From Bacteroidota bacterium (GTDB taxonomy: Bacteria; Bacteroidota; Bacteroidia; NS11-12g; UBA955): 64,000 nt of DNA. Of the stretch, positions 6,013 to 15,390 are shown piece by piece; the first letter of the stretch is position 1, and the number at the start of each line of letters is the position of its first letter. The notes beneath the pieces were generated by a model. The model searched no databases. It saw nothing but the letters and a program-made list of their open reading frames with translations, and had not been told where the DNA came from. Position numbers and translations under genes: made by a program. The stretch spans positions 1-64,000 of the forward strand of contig JAGFIU010000053.1 of the NCBI GenBank assembly GCA_024103355.1, in the 5' to 3' direction.

Positions 6013-7317
6013 TTATTCAAATTTCTTCATAACGTCCATCATCAATGCTCGAATTTCTTTGTTGCATAAATTGCAGATACTGCCTTCATGCGTGTGTTTG
6101 ATAGATTTATCAGGGTTAAATTTTCCTTCATTTACATCATTGCCGATTTTGCGATAAGCATCTCTGAATGTCATCCCGTTCTTGACAAGTTGGTTGATTT
6201 CATCTACTGTGAATAGAGTATCAAATTTTTTGTCTTCCAATAATCCTTCTTTTATTTTCACATCTTTGAGTGCAAACGTGAGCATTTGCAAGCATTCCTT
6301 AATAGTGTCAATCGCTGAGAATGTAATTTCTTTGGTGAGTTGCATATCTCGATGATAACCTGAGGGAAGGTTGTTTATCAAGAGGGTCATTTCATTTGGA
6401 TATGCCTGAATACGATTACATTTTGCACGCAAAAGCTCAAATACATCAGGATTCTTTTTGTGTGGCATAATGCTCGAACCTGTTGTCAGAGAATCGGGGA
6501 AGATAAGATAGTCAAATTGCTGATTGAGATAGAGACAAATGTCATAAGAAAACTTTGAAATGGTTGCTGCTATTGATGCAATTGCATTGAGCAAAACTTT
6601 TTCTGTTTTACCTCTTGTCATTTGTGCATAAAGAGAGTTAAAGTTTAAAGTTTTCATATTCAGCAATTTGGTAGTAAGAGTTCTGTTGAGCGGAAAAGCA
6701 GAACCATAACCTGCACCCGAGCCGAGCGGATTTTTGTTTGCAAGTGAATATGCACTTGATAAAACTTCCAAATCATCTACCAAAGCCTCTGCATAAGCTC
6801 CAAACCACATTCCAAATGATGAAGGCATGGCAAGTTGTAAGTGAGTGTAACCCGGCATCAAATGAGAGCTGTTTTCTTCGCTTAGTGATTGTAATCTTTC
6901 AAAAAGAGTTAAACTCAGTTGCGCAATCTCTTTTATTTCAGCTTTCAAATACAGTTTGATTGCTACCAAAACCTGGTCATTTCGGGAGCGACCGGTATGA
7001 ACCTTTTTCCCTGCATCCCCAATACTATCAATCAATTCCTTCTCAATCTGTGAATGTATGTCTTCAATATGTTCTTCAATAGCAAACTTACCGGAACGAA
7101 TTTTTTCTTCAATTTGGTGAAGTCCTTTTTGAATATCTTCAAACTCTTGCCCGCTAATGATTCCCACTTCTTTCAGCATTTCTGCATGAGCCAAAGAAGC
7201 CATGATGTCAAAAGGAGCAAGGCGCATATCTAAAACTCTGTCATTTCCGACCGTGAAAGATTCGGTTTTTAGAGAAATATCATTGTGTTCAAAGTCTTTT
7301 TTTTGCCAGATTTTCAT
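6013..7317 (-). CDS. argH: Argininosuccinate lyase
   Basis: Last step of arginine synthesis, splitting argininosuccinate into arginine and fumarate. The 434-residue protein has the fumarase/aspartase superfamily signature GSSIMPHKKNPD with the catalytic Ser in the flexible loop (Ser281/Ser282), the HTGRSRNDQ motif near residue 107 and the catalytic-His region PGYTHLQ (His159). Last gene of the minus-strand arg operon. Its ATG overlaps the argE stop in an ATGA arrangement, implying translational coupling. The C-terminus (CNLCNKEIRALMMDVMKKFE) carries a CxxC of unknown meaning. Confidence 0.97.
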   Translation of the reverse strand: MKIWQKKDFEHNDISLKTESFTVGNDRVLDMRLAPFDIMASLAHAEMLKEVGIISGQEFEDIQKGLHQIEEKIRSGKFAIEEHIEDIHSQIEKELIDSIGDAGKKVHTGRSRNDQVLVAIKLYLKAEIKEIAQLSLTLFERLQSLSEENSSHLMPGYTHLQLAMPSSFGMWFGAYAEALVDDLEVLSSAYSLANKNPLGSGAGYGSAFPLNRTLTTKLLNMKTLNFNSLYAQMTRGKTEKVLLNAIASIAATISKFSYDICLYLNQQFDYLIFPDSLTTGSSIMPHKKNPDVFELLRAKCNRIQAYPNEMTLLINNLPSGYHRDMQLTKEITFSAIDTIKECLQMLTFALKDVKIKEGLLEDKKFDTLFTVDEINQLVKNGMTFRDAYRKIGNDVNEGKFNPDKSIKHTHEGSICNLCNKEIRALMMDVMKKFE

Positions 7318-8408
7318 TTTTTTACTTGATTAAATTGATGGGAGAGTTTGTTTATCAATGAGCAATAACAATTGAGCCCATCTTCAATTTCTTGAATAAA
7401 GATAAATTCGTCAGCAGAATGAGAACGTGCAGAGTCCCCCGGACCTAACTTGATAGAATCCCAAGGCATCAGTGCTTGGTCGGAGGTTGTGGGCGAGCCG
7501 TACAAATCGATATTTAAACGTTGTGCAGCTATTATCAGTGGATGGTTTAAGTCTATAAATGAAGGTTTCATGCGGGAAGAGCGAATCTTCAGTTCAGATT
7601 GCAAATTGTTTTGAAGTATTTCTAAAACTTGTTCGTGAGTATAGTGCTCGTTGAGCCTGATATCAATGGTGAATGAGCATTTCTCGGGTACTTGATTGTG
7701 GGCAGTACCTGCTTGTATTACGGTTACATTCATCGAAATTTTTCCCAACCATTCAGACTCTTTATCAAAAGTGAGGTTTTTGATTTTTTCAATATCCTTT
7801 AGTGCGATATAGATGGCGTTGATTCCTTCATTTCGGGCAGCATGTCCGGCTTTTCCTTTGGCAACAGCATCTACAACCATTAAACCTCTTTCTGCAACAG
7901 CAATTTTGAGCAAAGTAGGTTCACCGACAATAGCGAAATCTATCTTACCGAGTTCTGTGCTAACGAGTTCAACACCACCGGTGCCGGATGTCTCTTCTTC
8001 AGCGGTGGCTGCATAGATGATATTAAACGGCAAATCTTTTTTTTCATAAAAATGAACAAATGCACCCAGCAAACAAACCAATGCGCCACCGGCATCATTG
8101 CTCCCCAAACCGTATGATTTACCGTCCTTTTCGAGTGGCTCAAAGGGATTCAATGTGTAGCCGGAATTGGGCTTCACTGTGTCATGATGAGAGTTGAGCA
8201 AAAGGGTAGGTTTTTTGGAATCATAATAAAGATTTTTTGACCAAACATTATTTCCGATTCGATATGCCGGAATTTGTAGGCTTTGCATAAAATCTGTCAA
8301 TGCCTGAGCAGTTTTATCTTCTTCCTTGCTGAATGAAGGTAAGGCAATCAACTGTTTGAGCAGATTGTAAATTTTATGATTGATATCAGAGAGTGATAGC
8401 GGTTCCAA
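7314..8408 (-). CDS. argE: Acetylornithine/succinylornithine deacylase-type M20 peptidase
   Basis: In this operon it should remove the acyl group from N-acylcitrulline, the product of the ArgF' type pathway, rather than from acylornithine; this is inferred from context. The 364-residue M20 metallopeptidase shows the first metal motif HHDTV (His74, Asp76), the GSNDAGGALV motif with the bridging Asp, and AEEETSGTGG with the catalytic Glu. The start is a TTG at 8406-8408, 23 bases inside argB. No ATG is available nearby and the N-terminus then has normal family length. Confidence 0.9.
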   Translation of the reverse strand: MEPLSLSDINHKIYNLLKQLIALPSFSKEEDKTAQALTDFMQSLQIPAYRIGNNVWSKNLYYDSKKPTLLLNSHHDTVKPNSGYTLNPFEPLEKDGKSYGLGSNDAGGALVCLLGAFVHFYEKKDLPFNIIYAATAEEETSGTGGVELVSTELGKIDFAIVGEPTLLKIAVAERGLMVVDAVAKGKAGHAARNEGINAIYIALKDIEKIKNLTFDKESEWLGKISMNVTVIQAGTAHNQVPEKCSFTIDIRLNEHYTHEQVLEILQNNLQSELKIRSSRMKPSFIDLNHPLIIAAQRLNIDLYGSPTTSDQALMPWDSIKLGPGDSARSHSADEFIFIQEIEDGLNCYCSLINKLSHQFNQVKK

Positions 8409-9165: not shown

Positions 9166-10122
9166 TTATAATTCTTTTAGAATTTCCGTCAGAATGGTTT
9201 GTGCGGCAATAACCCTGTTGCCGGCTTGTTGTTGAATTAAAGAAACAGAAGGGTCGTCAATAAGTTCATCGGAAAGTTCAACATTTCTTCTAACCGGAAG
9301 ACAGTGCATAATTTTGGCCTGTTTGGTTAGTTCCATTTTGGATTTGTTCAGCAGCCAATTTTCCTTAACCTCCGGCATTGCTCCATAGTCTGTGTAAGAA
9401 GACCAGTTTTTCACATACACAAAGTCAGCATCTTGAAGGGCCTCCGATTGGTTATGGGTTATGAGAGATGCACCTTTTGTAAATTTTTCATCCAATTCAT
9501 ACCCTTTAGGATGTGCAATCACAAGCTCTGCACCTGACGCAATAGACCATTCTGCAAAAGAATTTGAAACCGCCTGTGGCAATGGTTTAATATGTGGAGC
9601 CCAAGTCAAAACCACTTTTGGTCTTTGTTCCGAGCGATGATGTTCTTTGATTGTAATCATGTCTGCAAAACTCTGCAAGGGATGCAATGTGGCTGATTCC
9701 AAACTAATGAGAGGAACAGAAAGGTTAGCCAAAAAGGCATTAAAAATCTCTTCGTTATAGTCTTTTTCTCGGTCAATCAGACCGGGAAAACTGCGGAGAC
9801 CTACAATATCGCAATACTGAGAAATAACACCGGCAGCTTCTTTGATATGCTCGCTTGTTGAACCGTTCATCACAGCGCCATCTCCGAACTCTAGTTGCCA
9901 ACTGTCTTTATCAAGGTTGACAGTCATAACATTCATACCCAAATTATATGCTGCACGTTGAGTGCTCATACGGGTTCGCAAACTTGGATTCATAAAAAGT
10001 AAACCGATGGTTTTGCCTTTTCCTATGACGGAGTATTCTGAAGGGTTCTGTTTTATATGAATAGCTTTGTTCAATAATGCTACGATATCAGGCACATTTT
10101 GAACAGAAATAAAGTTTCTCAT
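9166..10122 (-). CDS. argF': N-acetyl- or N-succinylornithine carbamoyltransferase
   Basis: Makes N-acylcitrulline from N-acylornithine and carbamoyl phosphate, the variant step of Xanthomonas and Bacteroides. The 318-residue protein has the carbamoyl-phosphate motif NPSLRTR (residues 45-51), the ornithine-loop region and the HCLPVRR motif. I start it at the ATG 10120-10122, which overlaps the argD stop as ATGA. A longer frame with a TTG start adds 25 unlikely residues inside argD. The residue expected to choose acetyl (Glu) or succinyl (Pro) is Ser90 here, in GSTSEHI, so the acyl group cannot be read off directly. Confidence 0.93.
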   Translation of the reverse strand: MRNFISVQNVPDIVALLNKAIHIKQNPSEYSVIGKGKTIGLLFMNPSLRTRMSTQRAAYNLGMNVMTVNLDKDSWQLEFGDGAVMNGSTSEHIKEAAGVISQYCDIVGLRSFPGLIDREKDYNEEIFNAFLANLSVPLISLESATLHPLQSFADMITIKEHHRSEQRPKVVLTWAPHIKPLPQAVSNSFAEWSIASGAELVIAHPKGYELDEKFTKGASLITHNQSEALQDADFVYVKNWSSYTDYGAMPEVKENWLLNKSKMELTKQAKIMHCLPVRRNVELSDELIDDPSVSLIQQQAGNRVIAAQTILTEILKEL

Positions 10123-11261
10123 GAGGCAGCAAGGGAATTTTTCAAAGCAATATTCAAAGCACTGAGAAAAGTGTCTGCTTGTTTGCGTGTTAAACACAAT
10201 GGCGGTAACACTCTCAATGTGTTTTTGTCAGATGAAGAACCGGTAAAAATATGGTGTTTGTGCAGCAGTTCATTTCTAACTGGAGCACAGTTTTCATAAA
10301 GCTCTATACCTATCATCAAACCCATTCCTCTCACTTCTTTAACTTGTTTAATAAGAGCGAGTTCTTGCATGAGGTAATTTCCTATTTCCTTAGCATTAGA
10401 AATCAGGTTTTCATTTTTCATCACATCAAGAACTGCAACGGAGGAAGCGCAAGCCAAATAATTTCCGCCAAAGGTTGTTCCCAATAAACCGTGTTTTGCT
10501 GCAAAAATTGGGGATAGCAAAATCCCGGCAATCGGAAAACCGTTACCCATACCTTTTGCCATTGAAATTATATCTGCTTTGATATCAGCACCTTGATGGG
10601 CAAAGAAATTTCCGCTTCTGCCAAAACCGGATTGTATTTCGTCCAATATCAATATAGCTCCTGTTTTATTACACAATTCTCTTGCTGTTTTCAGAAAGTG
10701 TGTATTGGGAACTTTTACTCCACCCACGCCTTGAATACCTTCAATAATTACTGCACAAACCTCATCCGTTACTATCTTTTTTAAAGCCTCTTCATCATTG
10801 AGAGGTGTAAAGACAACTTCGTGAACTTTGTTAACTTCTGCCTGAATAGAAGGATTGTCAGTGCATGCAACAGCCAGCGAGGTTCTGCCGTGAAAAGCAC
10901 CTTTCATCGCAACTATTTTTTTTCTGCTATTATGAAAAGATGCCATTTTAAGCGCGTTCTCATTGGCTTCAGCACCTGAGTTACAAAGAAAAAGAGCATA
11001 ATCCTCATAGCCTGACAACTTACCTAATTTTTCGGCTAATTCTTTTTGAATGGGTATTTTTACTGAGTTAGAATAGAATCCAATCTTTTTTAACTGTTCC
11101 GTGAGTTTCTCAATATAATGAGGATGGCTGTGTCCTATTGAAATCACAGCATGCCCGCCATAGAGGTCAAGATATTGAACATTGTCCTTGTCATAAACAT
11201 AAGCCCCTTCACCTCTTACGGGTTCTATGTCAAAAAGGGGATAAACATCAAATAAATTCAT
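10119..11261 (-). CDS. argD: Acetylornithine aminotransferase
   Basis: PLP enzyme turning N-acylglutamate semialdehyde into N-acylornithine. The 380-residue class III aminotransferase has the PLP-binding GAEANENALKMA region (about residue 97), AFHGRT, the ILILDEIQSGFGRSG motif with the PLP-contacting Asp, and the Schiff-base Lys236 in ISMAKGMGNG. Fourth gene of the arg operon, 4 nt after argC and overlapping argF' by 4 nt. Confidence 0.95.
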   Translation of the reverse strand: MNLFDVYPLFDIEPVRGEGAYVYDKDNVQYLDLYGGHAVISIGHSHPHYIEKLTEQLKKIGFYSNSVKIPIQKELAEKLGKLSGYEDYALFLCNSGAEANENALKMASFHNSRKKIVAMKGAFHGRTSLAVACTDNPSIQAEVNKVHEVVFTPLNDEEALKKIVTDEVCAVIIEGIQGVGGVKVPNTHFLKTARELCNKTGAILILDEIQSGFGRSGNFFAHQGADIKADIISMAKGMGNGFPIAGILLSPIFAAKHGLLGTTFGGNYLACASSVAVLDVMKNENLISNAKEIGNYLMQELALIKQVKEVRGMGLMIGIELYENCAPVRNELLHKHHIFTGSSSDKNTLRVLPPLCLTRKQADTFLSALNIALKNSLAAS

Positions 11262-11265
11262 GGTA

Positions 11266-12246
11266 TTAAAATGCAGAAGGTTTTAGTTTTAAACCGGTTG
11301 TTTCATCAAATCCAAACATCAGGTTCATGTTTTGAACAGCTTGTCCTGACGCGCCTTTGAGTAAGTTGTCAACCGCAGAAGTAATAAAGGTATAATCGTC
11401 ATGTTTTTCAATTGCTATAAAACAACGGTTGGTATTGACTACCTGTTTTAGATCTATCGGTTGATTGCTAATCCTGATAAAAGGATGTGTTTTGTAATAA
11501 AAATTAAAAAGTTCTAAGATTTCTTCCCGGGTTAAGGAACATTTAAAATATACAGAAGCAAAAATTCCGCGTGAAAAGTTTCCTCTTTGCGGTATGAAAT
11601 TGATTTTGCCGTCAAAATTGCTTTGAAGCGAACACAGGCTTTCGTTTATTTCTGTTAAATGCTGATGTGTAAATGCTTTGTAAACCGAAGTATTGTTATC
11701 TCTCCATGAAAAATGGGTGGTATCGCTTGGTGCTTGTCCTGCACCTGTGGAACCGGTGGTTGCATTTACATGAATTTCATTTGGCAAAATACCGGCATTG
11801 GCGAAGGGCAAGAGAGCTAATTGAACTCCGGTGGCAAAACATCCCGGATTTGCTATATTCCTTGACTTTGAAATTTTATCTCGGTTCAATTCCGGCAATC
11901 CATAAATAAACTTTCTGCCTTGAATCTCACTTTTGTTTCTATGCCTAAAATCTTGGCTCAAATCAATAATAGCAATATGTTCAGGTATCGTATTCTCTGC
12001 AAAAAATGCCTCTGCTTTGTGATGACCGCTGCACAGAAACAGCAGCTCTGCTTCAAAAGAAATTTTATTGGTAAATTCCAATTCGGTTTCTCCCAAAAGA
12101 TCTGTGTGCACATGCCAAATTTTGTTCCCGGCATTGCTGTTACTATGTACAAAAACCAATTCAACATTGGGATGATTAAGCAGAATGCGGATTAATTCAC
12201 CACCTGTATAGCCCGCGCCTCCGATAATGCCAACTTTAATTTTCAT
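11266..12246 (-). CDS. argC: N-acetyl-gamma-glutamyl-phosphate reductase
   Basis: NADPH-dependent reduction of the acylglutamyl phosphate made by ArgB. The 326-residue protein starts with a Rossmann motif GIIGGAGYTGGELIRIL and has the catalytic Cys136 in NPGCFATG. Full family length. The start overlaps the end of argG by 11 nt, which suggests coupled translation. Confidence 0.95.
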   Translation of the reverse strand: MKIKVGIIGGAGYTGGELIRILLNHPNVELVFVHSNSNAGNKIWHVHTDLLGETELEFTNKISFEAELLFLCSGHHKAEAFFAENTIPEHIAIIDLSQDFRHRNKSEIQGRKFIYGLPELNRDKISKSRNIANPGCFATGVQLALLPFANAGILPNEIHVNATTGSTGAGQAPSDTTHFSWRDNNTSVYKAFTHQHLTEINESLCSLQSNFDGKINFIPQRGNFSRGIFASVYFKCSLTREEILELFNFYYKTHPFIRISNQPIDLKQVVNTNRCFIAIEKHDDYTFITSAVDNLLKGASGQAVQNMNLMFGFDETTGLKLKPSAF

Positions 12247-13450
12247 TTTTCTCAGGTTTATTTACTTGAAAATAAAGACTCATTTGGTTCCCGTAAATTT
12301 TGGTAAAACCTTTGACATCCTCACCACTCCAAGCATTGTTCATTTCACCGTAGCTTCCAAATTTTTCAGACATCAAGTCATGCTCGGATTCTATTCCTAT
12401 CAGTTCAAATCGATAGGGAAGCAGGCGCATAAACACTTTACCGGAAACAAATTTTTGACTTGATTCCAGAAAACGCTCTATATCCCGCATTGCAGCTTCA
12501 AAATATTGACCTTCATGCAGCCACATTCCATAATATGCACTCATTTGCTCTTTCAGAAATTGCTGCCATTTGCTAAGGGTATGTTTTTCTAATAAATGAT
12601 GTGCCTTGATGATAATCAAAGGAGCAGCAGCTTCGAAACCCACTCTGCCCTTGATTCCTATGATGGTATCACCCACATGCACATCTCGTCCAATAGCAAA
12701 AGGAGCTGCAATTGCTTGCAGCGCATTTATAGCATCAACGGATTTAGAAAAAGATTGTTTGTTGACACCAATGAGTTCGCCTTTTTCAAATTGAAGTTCG
12801 ATTTCAATAGGGTCTTTTGTTGTCAACTGTGTGGGATAAGCATCTTCGGGTAGTGAATGTCTTGAATTTAATGTTTCTTTTCCTCCAACAGAAGTTCCCC
12901 AAATGCCTTTATTGATGCTGTATGCAGCTTTTTCAAAGTTCATTGAAACATTGTTTTTTTTCAAAAAGTCAATTTCTTGTTCACGAGATAATTTCAAATC
13001 TCTAATAGGGGTAATGACTTTGATTTGAGGTGCAATAATTTGCAGAACTACATCAAATCTTACCTGGTCGTTTCCGGCTCCGGTGCTTCCGTGAGCTATA
13101 TAAGAGGCTCCGATTTCTTTGGCGTAGTTAGCAACTGCAATTGCCTGAACCGTTCTTTCTGCACTCACAGAGAGAGGGTAAGTGTTGTTGCGCAATACAT
13201 TACCGAAAATCATGTATTTGATTACAGATTGATAATAGTTTTCTCTTTCATCAATGGCTTTGAATGAAGAAATACCCAAGCTAAGGGCGTGTTCACGTGT
13301 CTTTGAGATTTCATTTTCAGAGAAACCTCCGGTATTGACCATTAGGGCGTGAACTTCATAGCCTTTTTCCTTGGTAAGATAGACAGCACAAAAGGTAGTG
13401 TCCAAGCCGCCACTAAATGCCAACACCAGCTTTTTGGAGTTATTGGTCAT
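12236..13450 (-). CDS. argG: Argininosuccinate synthase
   Basis: Joins citrulline and aspartate with ATP. The 404-residue protein shows the N-type ATP pyrophosphatase loop LAFSGGLDTT near residue 10 and the HGSTGAGNDQVRF motif that binds citrulline and aspartate. Starts two bases after the GNAT gene stops (abutting), and overlaps argC at its end. As the second gene of the operon it should be expressed with the whole arginine set. Confidence 0.95.
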   Translation of the reverse strand: MTNNSKKLVLAFSGGLDTTFCAVYLTKEKGYEVHALMVNTGGFSENEISKTREHALSLGISSFKAIDERENYYQSVIKYMIFGNVLRNNTYPLSVSAERTVQAIAVANYAKEIGASYIAHGSTGAGNDQVRFDVVLQIIAPQIKVITPIRDLKLSREQEIDFLKKNNVSMNFEKAAYSINKGIWGTSVGGKETLNSRHSLPEDAYPTQLTTKDPIEIELQFEKGELIGVNKQSFSKSVDAINALQAIAAPFAIGRDVHVGDTIIGIKGRVGFEAAAPLIIIKAHHLLEKHTLSKWQQFLKEQMSAYYGMWLHEGQYFEAAMRDIERFLESSQKFVSGKVFMRLLPYRFELIGIESEHDLMSEKFGSYGEMNNAWSGEDVKGFTKIYGNQMSLYFQVNKPEKNEN

Positions 13451-14113
13451 TTATAGTATGGTTTCTTTTTGGTTGCGTTTCAAAAATGATTTAACCATCT
13501 TTTTTACATTCATATAGATGGAAGTATAGCTCTTTGTTTTTTGTTCCGGTGCAGAAACAGGTTTCTCATTTTTATGTTCAGCCGGATTGTACAACATGGC
13601 AGTACACAAGCAGTTTTTTCTGCCTTTGCTCATCAAAATGGGATAGTTTACGCAGCTTTTGCAACCTGCCCAAAACTCATCATCATCGGTTAATTCTGAA
13701 TATGTAACCGGTTTGTATCCCAATTCAGCATTGATTTTCATAACAGCCAATCCTGTAGTAAGCCCAAACAATTGAGCTTCGGGATATTTTTCTCTTGAGA
13801 GGTTAAAAGCTTTCTTTTTAATCTCCTTGGCTAAACCATCCTGCCTATATTTTGGGGAGACAATCAAACCGGAGTTTGCAACAAACTTTCCGTGTCCCCA
13901 TGTCTCGATGTAGCAAAAGCCTGCCCAATCTCCGTTGAGAGTAACAGCAATGACTGCTTTTCCTTCATCCATTTTCTTTTGTAAATATTCCGGTGTTCTT
14001 TTGGCAATTCCGGTACCTCTTTGTTTCGCAGATTCTTCGTATTCTATACATATCTGCTCAGCATATTTATAGTGTGAGCGGTCTGCAATAGTGATCAAAT
14101 AGGTTTCTTCCAT
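13451..14113 (-). CDS. GNAT N-acyltransferase, possible acylglutamate synthase
   Basis: First gene of the arg operon. The 220-residue protein has a GNAT fold over residues 5-135 with the acetyl-CoA loop RQDGLA (residues 90-95). Residues 151-170 carry four Cys as CKSC and CLC, which could hold a zinc ion. The region after residue 180 is Lys-rich and unstructured in appearance. No argA or argJ is present in the cluster, so this is the best candidate for making the N-acylglutamate precursor; that is an inference from position and family, not from a diagnostic motif. ATG at 14111-14113. Confidence 0.75.
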   Translation of the reverse strand: MEETYLITIADRSHYKYAEQICIEYEESAKQRGTGIAKRTPEYLQKKMDEGKAVIAVTLNGDWAGFCYIETWGHGKFVANSGLIVSPKYRQDGLAKEIKKKAFNLSREKYPEAQLFGLTTGLAVMKINAELGYKPVTYSELTDDDEFWAGCKSCVNYPILMSKGRKNCLCTAMLYNPAEHKNEKPVSAPEQKTKSYTSIYMNVKKMVKSFLKRNQKETIL

Positions 14114-14259
14114 TTCTGTTGCTAAAGCATAAAAGTTGTTTTGAATAGATATTTTTTAAGGGGTGCGAATATGAATAAATTAATCAAACAAAAAACAATG
14201 AATATTGGTTAAAATCTGAATTAACCCAATCAATATATAAACGAGTAAAAAACAACGAT

Positions 14260-14267
14260 TATCTTTG
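14260..14267 (+). promoter_or_regulatory. -7 promoter element for the PspC-like gene
   Basis: TATCTTTG matches the Bacteroidota -7 consensus TAnnTTTG exactly and ends 5 nt before the ATG at 14273, so the mRNA would be nearly leaderless. No good -33 TTTG is seen. Confidence 0.5.
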
Positions 14268-14272
14268 CAGCC

Positions 14273-14491
14273 ATGAAATGGCTAAAAAAGTTTTTTGAAC
14301 CCAAGATTTTCGGTGTCTGCACTGAGATTGCAGAGAAATTTAATCTGCCTATTTCTTTGGTTAGAATGTTTTTTATTTATCTGAGTTTTGTAACCTTTTT
14401 CTCACCGGTTATTTTTTATCTTGGGGTTGCATTCTTTTTGCGTTTTAAAGAACTTTTTATTACCAAACGCATTACTGTTAGAGATTTATAA
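14273..14491 (+). CDS. PspC-domain small membrane protein
   Basis: A 72-residue protein with the PspC pattern: GVCTEIAEKFNLPISLVRMFFIYLSF, then a second membrane segment ending in a basic tail. PspC proteins sit in the inner membrane and take part in envelope-stress responses in enterobacteria. Here no pspA or pspB is near, so a stress role is only an inference. Divergent from the arg operon; prmA follows 41 nt downstream. Confidence 0.8.
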   Translation: MKWLKKFFEPKIFGVCTEIAEKFNLPISLVRMFFIYLSFVTFFSPVIFYLGVAFFLRFKELFITKRITVRDL

Positions 14492-14532
14492 TAAGTGATT
14501 GTTTTTTCTTATCCTTGCACCGCAGGATATTT

Positions 14533-15390
14533 ATGTCAAATCAAGACCATACCCAAGTTTCACTCCGAATAAAAGAATCTATTTTAGAAAATTCTGAAAT
14601 TGCTTCGGCATTTTTGACTTCAATAGGTTATGTTGGTTTTGTTGAAGAAAATGAAAAACTGTTAGCGTATATTCCGGTTGATGATTATGATTCAACAGCC
14701 TTGGAAGTCTTGATTCAGGATTTAACAGAGAAAAATATTGTAGAACGTGAAATTGAAATACAAGTAATTGAAGACAGAAACTGGAATGAGGTTTGGGAGC
14801 AGCATTATTTTCAACCTATTGCGATACAAGACAGACTGTATGTTCGAGGAAGTTTTCACAAACGAGACAAGAGCTTTGAGGATGAAATTATTATAGACCC
14901 AAAGATGTCTTTTGGGACAGGACATCACCAAACGACCAAAATGATGTTGGAAAGTCTGTTAGAAGCAGATTTGAAAAATAAGTCAGTGATGGATATGGGC
15001 ACAGGTACAGGAATTTTGGCTATTTATGCAGCAAAAGCCGGAGCCGTTGATATTGAGTCAGTTGATATTGATGATTGGTCGGTTGAGAATGCGGTTGAGA
15101 ATTTTGAACTCAATGGGTTAAAAGATAAAATTAAGATTCACAAGGGAGATGCAAGAATCCTGAAAACATTGAACAAGTCTTTTGATGTGTTTATTGCAAA
15201 TATCAATCTTGGGGTGCTTATAGATGATATGCAAATCTATTGTGAGTATATAAACCAAGGAGGAGAGCTGTTTTTGAGCGGTTTCCTGCAATCAGATATT
15301 CCGGCTATTAAGGCTGCTTGTCCGCTGAGATTGGCGGACATAAAAAAAGACGGGGATTGGTCAATGCTTAAATTTATGAAAACTAATTAG
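14533..15390 (+). CDS. prmA: Ribosomal protein L11 methyltransferase
   Basis: SAM-dependent methylation of ribosomal protein L11. The 285-residue protein has the PrmA signature DPKMSFGTGHHQTT (from residue 122), the SAM loop MDMGTGTGILA (from 153) and a later NINLGVL, the family's NPPY-like motif. A TTG at 14515 would add six residues and overlaps the promoter-like TATCCTTG at 14510-14517, so the ATG at 14533 is preferred. The POT transporter gene starts 10 nt after the stop and is probably co-transcribed. Confidence 0.95.
   Translation: MSNQDHTQVSLRIKESILENSEIASAFLTSIGYVGFVEENEKLLAYIPVDDYDSTALEVLIQDLTEKNIVEREIEIQVIEDRNWNEVWEQHYFQPIAIQDRLYVRGSFHKRDKSFEDEIIIDPKMSFGTGHHQTTKMMLESLLEADLKNKSVMDMGTGTGILAIYAAKAGAVDIESVDIDDWSVENAVENFELNGLKDKIKIHKGDARILKTLNKSFDVFIANINLGVLIDDMQIYCEYINQGGELFLSGFLQSDIPAIKAACPLRLADIKKDGDWSMLKFMKTN

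Follow-up and report, generated by a model that had tools for sequence, protein, structure and literature searches.

A role as acylglutamate synthase, the first enzyme of arginine synthesis, has already been published and is well supported for one family of GNAT proteins (PMC7311316, PMC9026213, PMC5317091). The GapMind work used fitness data from three Bacteroidetes to report a role for BT3761 in arginine synthesis, probably as an N-succinylglutamate synthase, and it places a succinyl pathway in most Bacteroidetes (PMC7311316). The family has been named ArgA2 and assigned to 194 Bacteroidetes genomes that lack ArgA (PMC9026213). In Caldithrix abyssi, Cabys_1732 is the first gene of an argAGCBEH locus, is described as restricted to Bacteroidetes and C. 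abyssi, and is called a new N-acetylglutamate synthase on the basis of unpublished results (PMC5317091).

Here we analyze a gene of this kind in a 64,000-nucleotide stretch of a Bacteroidota genome (hereafter the window). Like ArgA2/BT3761, it encodes a GNAT in an arginine operon, adjoins argG, and is found with a succinyl-type ArgF' and with neither ArgA nor ArgJ; in a comparison by description rather than by sequence, we found no difference between the two. Cabys_1732, also likened to the window gene by description, differs in that it is reported to be acetyl-type. The GNAT catalytic domain of classical ArgA/NAGS (N. gonorrhoeae 2r8v) is the closest solved fold, but the window protein has no AAK domain or TIGR01890 match and carries a four-cysteine (Cys4) insert. 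This insert also distinguishes it from S-NAGS (M. tuberculosis ArgA, 5yge, 5yo2), which likewise consists of a GNAT domain alone and is second in our VIA-align comparison; a close sequence match to S-NAGS was not found. Lastly, as in H-NAGS, the Moritella ArgH-NAGS fusion (PMC4490483), some genomes join the first-step GNAT to an enzyme from late in the arginine pathway, but here the fusion partner is ArgG and the window genes are separate.

A GNAT gene heads the arginine operon

The operon comprises eight genes on the minus strand in the order GNAT-argG-argC-argD-argF'-argB-argE-argH, in which neighbors overlap, abut or lie at most four bases apart:

13451..14113, minus strand: predicted acylglutamate synthase of ArgA2 type with a GNAT fold, 220 aa, ATG start, operon gene 1
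13604..13663, minus strand: Cys4 segment, codons 151-170 (C151, C154, C168, C170), from alignment columns, conservation and secondary structure
12236..13450, minus strand: argG, argininosuccinate synthase, abutting the GNAT gene, from family matches
11266..12246, minus strand: argC, N-acyl-gamma-glutamyl-phosphate reductase, TIGR01850 above cut-off
10119..11261, minus strand: argD, acylornithine aminotransferase, from family matches
9166..10122, minus strand: argF', N-succinylornithine-type transcarbamylase, closest to 1js1/2fg6 of B. fragilis, from marker residues
8386..9165, minus strand: argB, acylglutamate kinase, lacking the N-terminal helix and the arginine-binding motif
7314..8408, minus strand: argE, M20-type deacylase, nearest to solved chain 3ct9
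6013..7317, minus strand: argH, argininosuccinate lyase, from protein sequence and loci of the same order

The start of argF' is taken to be the ATG that overlaps the argD stop, where the open reading frame list instead gives a GTG at 10197, and argH owes its name to its protein sequence and to loci of the same order rather than to a family search. The original prediction had described an operon with argB, C, D, F', E, G and H and a GNAT gene in first place, and this is what the open reading frames and family matches give. It had also named cysteines 151, 154, 168 and 170, which are exactly where we find them, on a strand (minus) that it did not give. Between the GNAT gene and a prmA-like gene (14515-15390), a small divergent frame that resembles a membrane protein can be made out by eye (14240-14515).

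The sole Pfam match of the GNAT protein is to the generic family PF00583 (22.8 bits; cut-off 20.7), and none of the NCBIfam models matches it. Its segment R90-Q-D-G93-L-A95 fits (R/Q)xxGx(G/A), the CoA motif rule of GNATs (PMC4490483), and with its predicted fold and this motif the protein belongs to the GNAT superfamily. A sequence search found no solved homolog over the full length of the protein. For an AlphaFold2 model built from the window protein and 23 relatives (mean pLDDT 87), the best Foldseek match is the N-acetylglutamate synthase 2r8v of N. gonorrhoeae (E 8.7e-8). The same structure takes the first row of VIA-align (Z 17.6, rmsd 2.7, 153 aligned), followed by M. tuberculosis ArgA 5yge (Z 16.4, rmsd 2.8, 145 aligned), with other GNATs at Z 15-16, just 1-2 units behind NAGS. 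As modeled, the fold agrees with an assignment as acylglutamate synthase, short of proof.

We propose that the window protein very probably catalyzes the first step in the Bacteroidota type of arginine pathway, as a stand-alone GNAT that would acylate glutamate, most likely from succinyl-CoA. As far as can be read from the DNA, the proposal draws on the operon, the GNAT fold and CoA motif, the lack of ArgA and ArgJ matches and the succinyl-type ArgF'; the reaction itself we infer. The GNAT would move an acyl group, most likely the succinyl group of succinyl-CoA, onto the amino group of glutamate, and ArgB, ArgC and ArgD would convert the acylglutamate product to N-succinylornithine. ArgF' would then carbamoylate N-succinylornithine, ArgE would take off the succinyl group, and ArgG and ArgH would complete arginine. 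The four cysteines, in an insert between strands beta6 and beta7, may bind a metal, for which a structural zinc is the likeliest choice.

The first step elsewhere in the host genome

The original prediction had suggested a search for argA or argJ elsewhere in the genome, and the search yields none of either: the host assembly (2.3 Mb in 60 contigs, completeness listed as 100%) has zero matches to ArgJ (PF01960) and zero to full-length ArgA (TIGR01890). The window protein itself has no PF01960 domain and so is not an ArgJ, and it does not show the AAK and GNAT domains and above-cut-off TIGR01890 match of a classical ArgA. A profile search identifies four other GNATs in the host. None is near arg genes in the loci read, and three short ones passed no curated cut-off when scanned with NCBIfam. 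The host GNAT L029 has weak matches to two N-acetylglutamate synthase models, PRK05279 (27.7 bits of 344) and TIGR01890 (15.9 of 202.85), both far short of the cut-off. The fourth (G000:C58:75435-75770, L030) fronts a long frame that looks ATP-grasp-like by eye and is not arg-linked.

Distribution and mutual exclusion with ArgJ

A scan of named genomes with six peptide patterns, of which one includes C151, returned 24 loci, 23 with titles that name Bacteroidota groups and one titled as a Kapaibacterium. In 23 of 23 loci (L005-L027) the GNAT ortholog immediately precedes argG or is fused to it, a count that leaves out L028, where the contig ends inside the gene. Because the order with argG is kept in all 23, the operon position of the GNAT is not chance. 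Orthologs from Bacteroidales (L010, L011, L021 and L024) have 52-66% identity to the window protein.

Across a phylum sample of 247 genomes, each at least 90% complete, the GNAT is present in 103 and ArgJ in 104, and both are present in one. These counts include fragmentary ArgJ hits in two genomes (G158 and G200) and follow the removal of one GNAT-profile match (G216; 19.5 bits), which if kept would make them 104, 104 and 2. The Fisher p value for the exclusion is 3.4e-34, a figure that overstates independence given that many genomes come from one family (f19). This near-exclusion is the pattern expected from two alternative solutions to the first step, though shared ancestry inflates the p value. 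The one genome with both genes (G323) has strong scores for each. All 103 genomes with the GNAT have an argB match. Of the 247 genomes, 33 have an argB match but lack both the GNAT and ArgJ, and therefore further first-step enzymes exist; options for these 33 are classical ArgA, another enzyme for the first step, or kinases of the LysW type.

Retention, loss and gene fusion among relatives

Among 97 relatives, the host included, the GNAT was found in four, argB is above cut-off in four, and the ArgG N-terminal domain is above cut-off in seven, five of which are short matches at the cut-off; high ArgG-domain scores are confined to the host and its genus mate (G001). Within this sample, genes for arginine synthesis are missing from nearly all members of the host's family and order, and the window genus is an exception. 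The genus mate has the same eight genes in identical order. A member of the same order (G066; L034 5467-10578) retains GNAT-argC-argD-argB-argE, while neither argG nor argF' was found in its genome, where a carbamoyltransferase search gave just a 27% match, and its argH is fragmentary with no intact copy. This degenerate locus may serve ornithine supply only. Since the GNAT is kept with argC-argD-argB-argE despite these losses, it goes with that half of the pathway in which the intermediates are acylated. In a member of the same family (G043), the GNAT has an internal stop and no arg genes adjoin it.

We considered horizontal gain of the operon, given that the GNAT and argB each occur in four of 97 relatives, and do not favor it. 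A tree of GNAT, ArgC and ArgD together from 21 loci places the window genus beside G066, a member of its order, with 100% support, a grouping that fits inheritance with repeated loss. As a counterpoint, a tree of the GNAT alone (56 genes) groups neither G066 nor G043 with the window genus.

Natural fusions of the GNAT to ArgG in a single reading frame occur at four loci (L018 5357-6901, L069, L070 and L071), with open frames of 588-630 aa. Three of these (L069, L070 and L071) are complete frames from one family, and L018 is from an uncultured Bacteroidales bin and is cut by a contig end. In the fusions the Cys4 segment is located just before the ArgG part. A literature search found no paper on a GNAT-ArgG fusion.

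Acyl donor and the case for the first-step role

The likely acyl donor is suggested by ArgF', whose nearest solved relative is N-succinylornithine transcarbamylase of B. fragilis (1js1/2fg6). Acetyl enzymes are marked by Glu92, Asn185 and Lys302, and succinyl enzymes by A/S/P/V/Q, P and V/I/E at the same positions (PMC4581275). The window ArgF' has Ser (Ser90), Pro (in PLPQ) and Glu (in RRNVE), and because all three residues are succinyl-type, the donor is most likely succinyl-CoA. At the first marker position, the 15 loci that cover it have V (5), A (3), P (3), S (2), T (1) and Q (1), with no Glu. The solved chain closest to the window ArgE is 3ct9, which we take to be BT3549, the desuccinylase candidate of GapMind. 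An enzyme of the same role that instead uses acetyl-CoA physiologically, and hence is an N-acetylglutamate synthase, would accord with the top fold matches, which are acetyl-CoA enzymes, and with the name given to the homolog Cabys_1732 (PMC5317091). We regard this as fairly unlikely, given the Ser, Pro and Glu of an ArgF' encoded in the same operon and a first marker that is succinyl-type (A, S, P, V or Q) at 14 of the 15 loci, the remaining one being Thr.

Alternatively, the GNAT might have some other substrate, such as a protein or a different amino acid, and merely share the operon, as might be suspected of a protein whose one family match, a weak one, is to generic GNATs and which has no full-length solved homolog by sequence search. 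We consider this very improbable: the strong mutual exclusion with ArgJ, the order with argG kept in 23 of 23 loci and the natural fusions to ArgG all argue against it, as does the fitness defect of BT3761, which is reported to be rescued by arginine (PMC7311316, PMC9026213). The ArgJ exclusion, the NAGS fold match, the GNAT-ArgG fusions and the retention in G066 are new support from this work. The original prediction had offered the GNAT as a candidate for the missing first step. Genomic context, predicted fold, ArgJ exclusion, fusions and the published fitness of BT3761 support that role, and the term candidate understates it since the family is already published.

The Cys4 segment and control of the pathway

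In the model, the Cys4 segment is within the beta6-beta7 insert (residues 137-170), which contains two short helices and lies between strands 134-136 and 171-175. Every one of the 56 distinct genes spanning the segment (56 of 56) has all four cysteines, a set that includes the window gene and one broken gene (L036), leaves out L028, which ends before the segment, and counts duplicates once (L001, L033 and L040; L002/L035; L003/L034; L004/L036). The set leans to close orthologs, as one of the peptide patterns behind L005-L028 itself includes C151 and L039-L068 are the 30 best-scoring places of the phylum GNAT search. Given this conservation, the segment belongs to the whole family; thus, the original prediction was right that it is real in the sequence, but it is not an addition peculiar to this gene. 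We infer from the invariance that the four cysteines form a needed site, most simply and most likely a structural zinc. A literature search found no paper on these cysteines, and the main texts of the two main family papers do not contain the word zinc.

Classical enzymes sense arginine in the AAK domain, through the motif E(L/I)(F/M)(T/S)xxGxGT (PMC4490483). Pfam finds no AAK domain on the window GNAT, and the window ArgB has nothing ahead of its kinase core. The arginine-binding motif is absent from the window ArgB and from 15 of 15 other ArgB frames, two of them from genomes without the GNAT, in a motif search that had no positive control. In addition, the host genome has zero matches to ArgR (PF01316). 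An Rfam search upstream gave one match, to a snoRNA family of nematodes (20.4 bits, below the gathering score of 44), which we took as chance. No sigma-70-like site turned up when 14050-14560 was scanned for promoters; the scan does not cover Bacteroidota promoters. The DNA upstream of the GNAT is partly conserved with the genus mate, and part of it looks by eye like coding sequence of the small divergent protein.

These absences, namely of ArgR in the host, of the ArgB motif in the window and 15 of 15 other frames, and of an AAK domain on the GNAT, would leave room for the Cys4 segment to act in regulation, as a switch that responds to metal or redox state and stands in for feedback by arginine, and invariance of the cysteines in 56 of 56 genes would fit such a role. 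The original prediction had raised metal-dependent control as a possibility, and here nothing beyond that strict conservation supports it. This idea adds to, rather than competes with, the first-step assignment, and we think it quite unlikely to be correct, because a structural zinc explains the strict invariance at least as well. A more elaborate and still improbable version is that the insert gates succinylglutamate formation by metal or redox state, in a pathway that here lacks the AAK sensor, the ArgB motif and an ArgR match, and that it also docks the synthase onto ArgG. Docking of this kind would explain why the Cys4 segment sits at the junction of the natural GNAT-ArgG fusions.

With the window protein as the very probable first enzyme, our analysis confirms the published gap-filling assignment in a lineage where arginine synthesis appears to have been lost from most relatives, and it shows near mutual exclusion of the enzyme with ArgJ across Bacteroidota. 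If the cysteines are regulatory, arginine control without a known arginine sensor in these bacteria would become directly testable.
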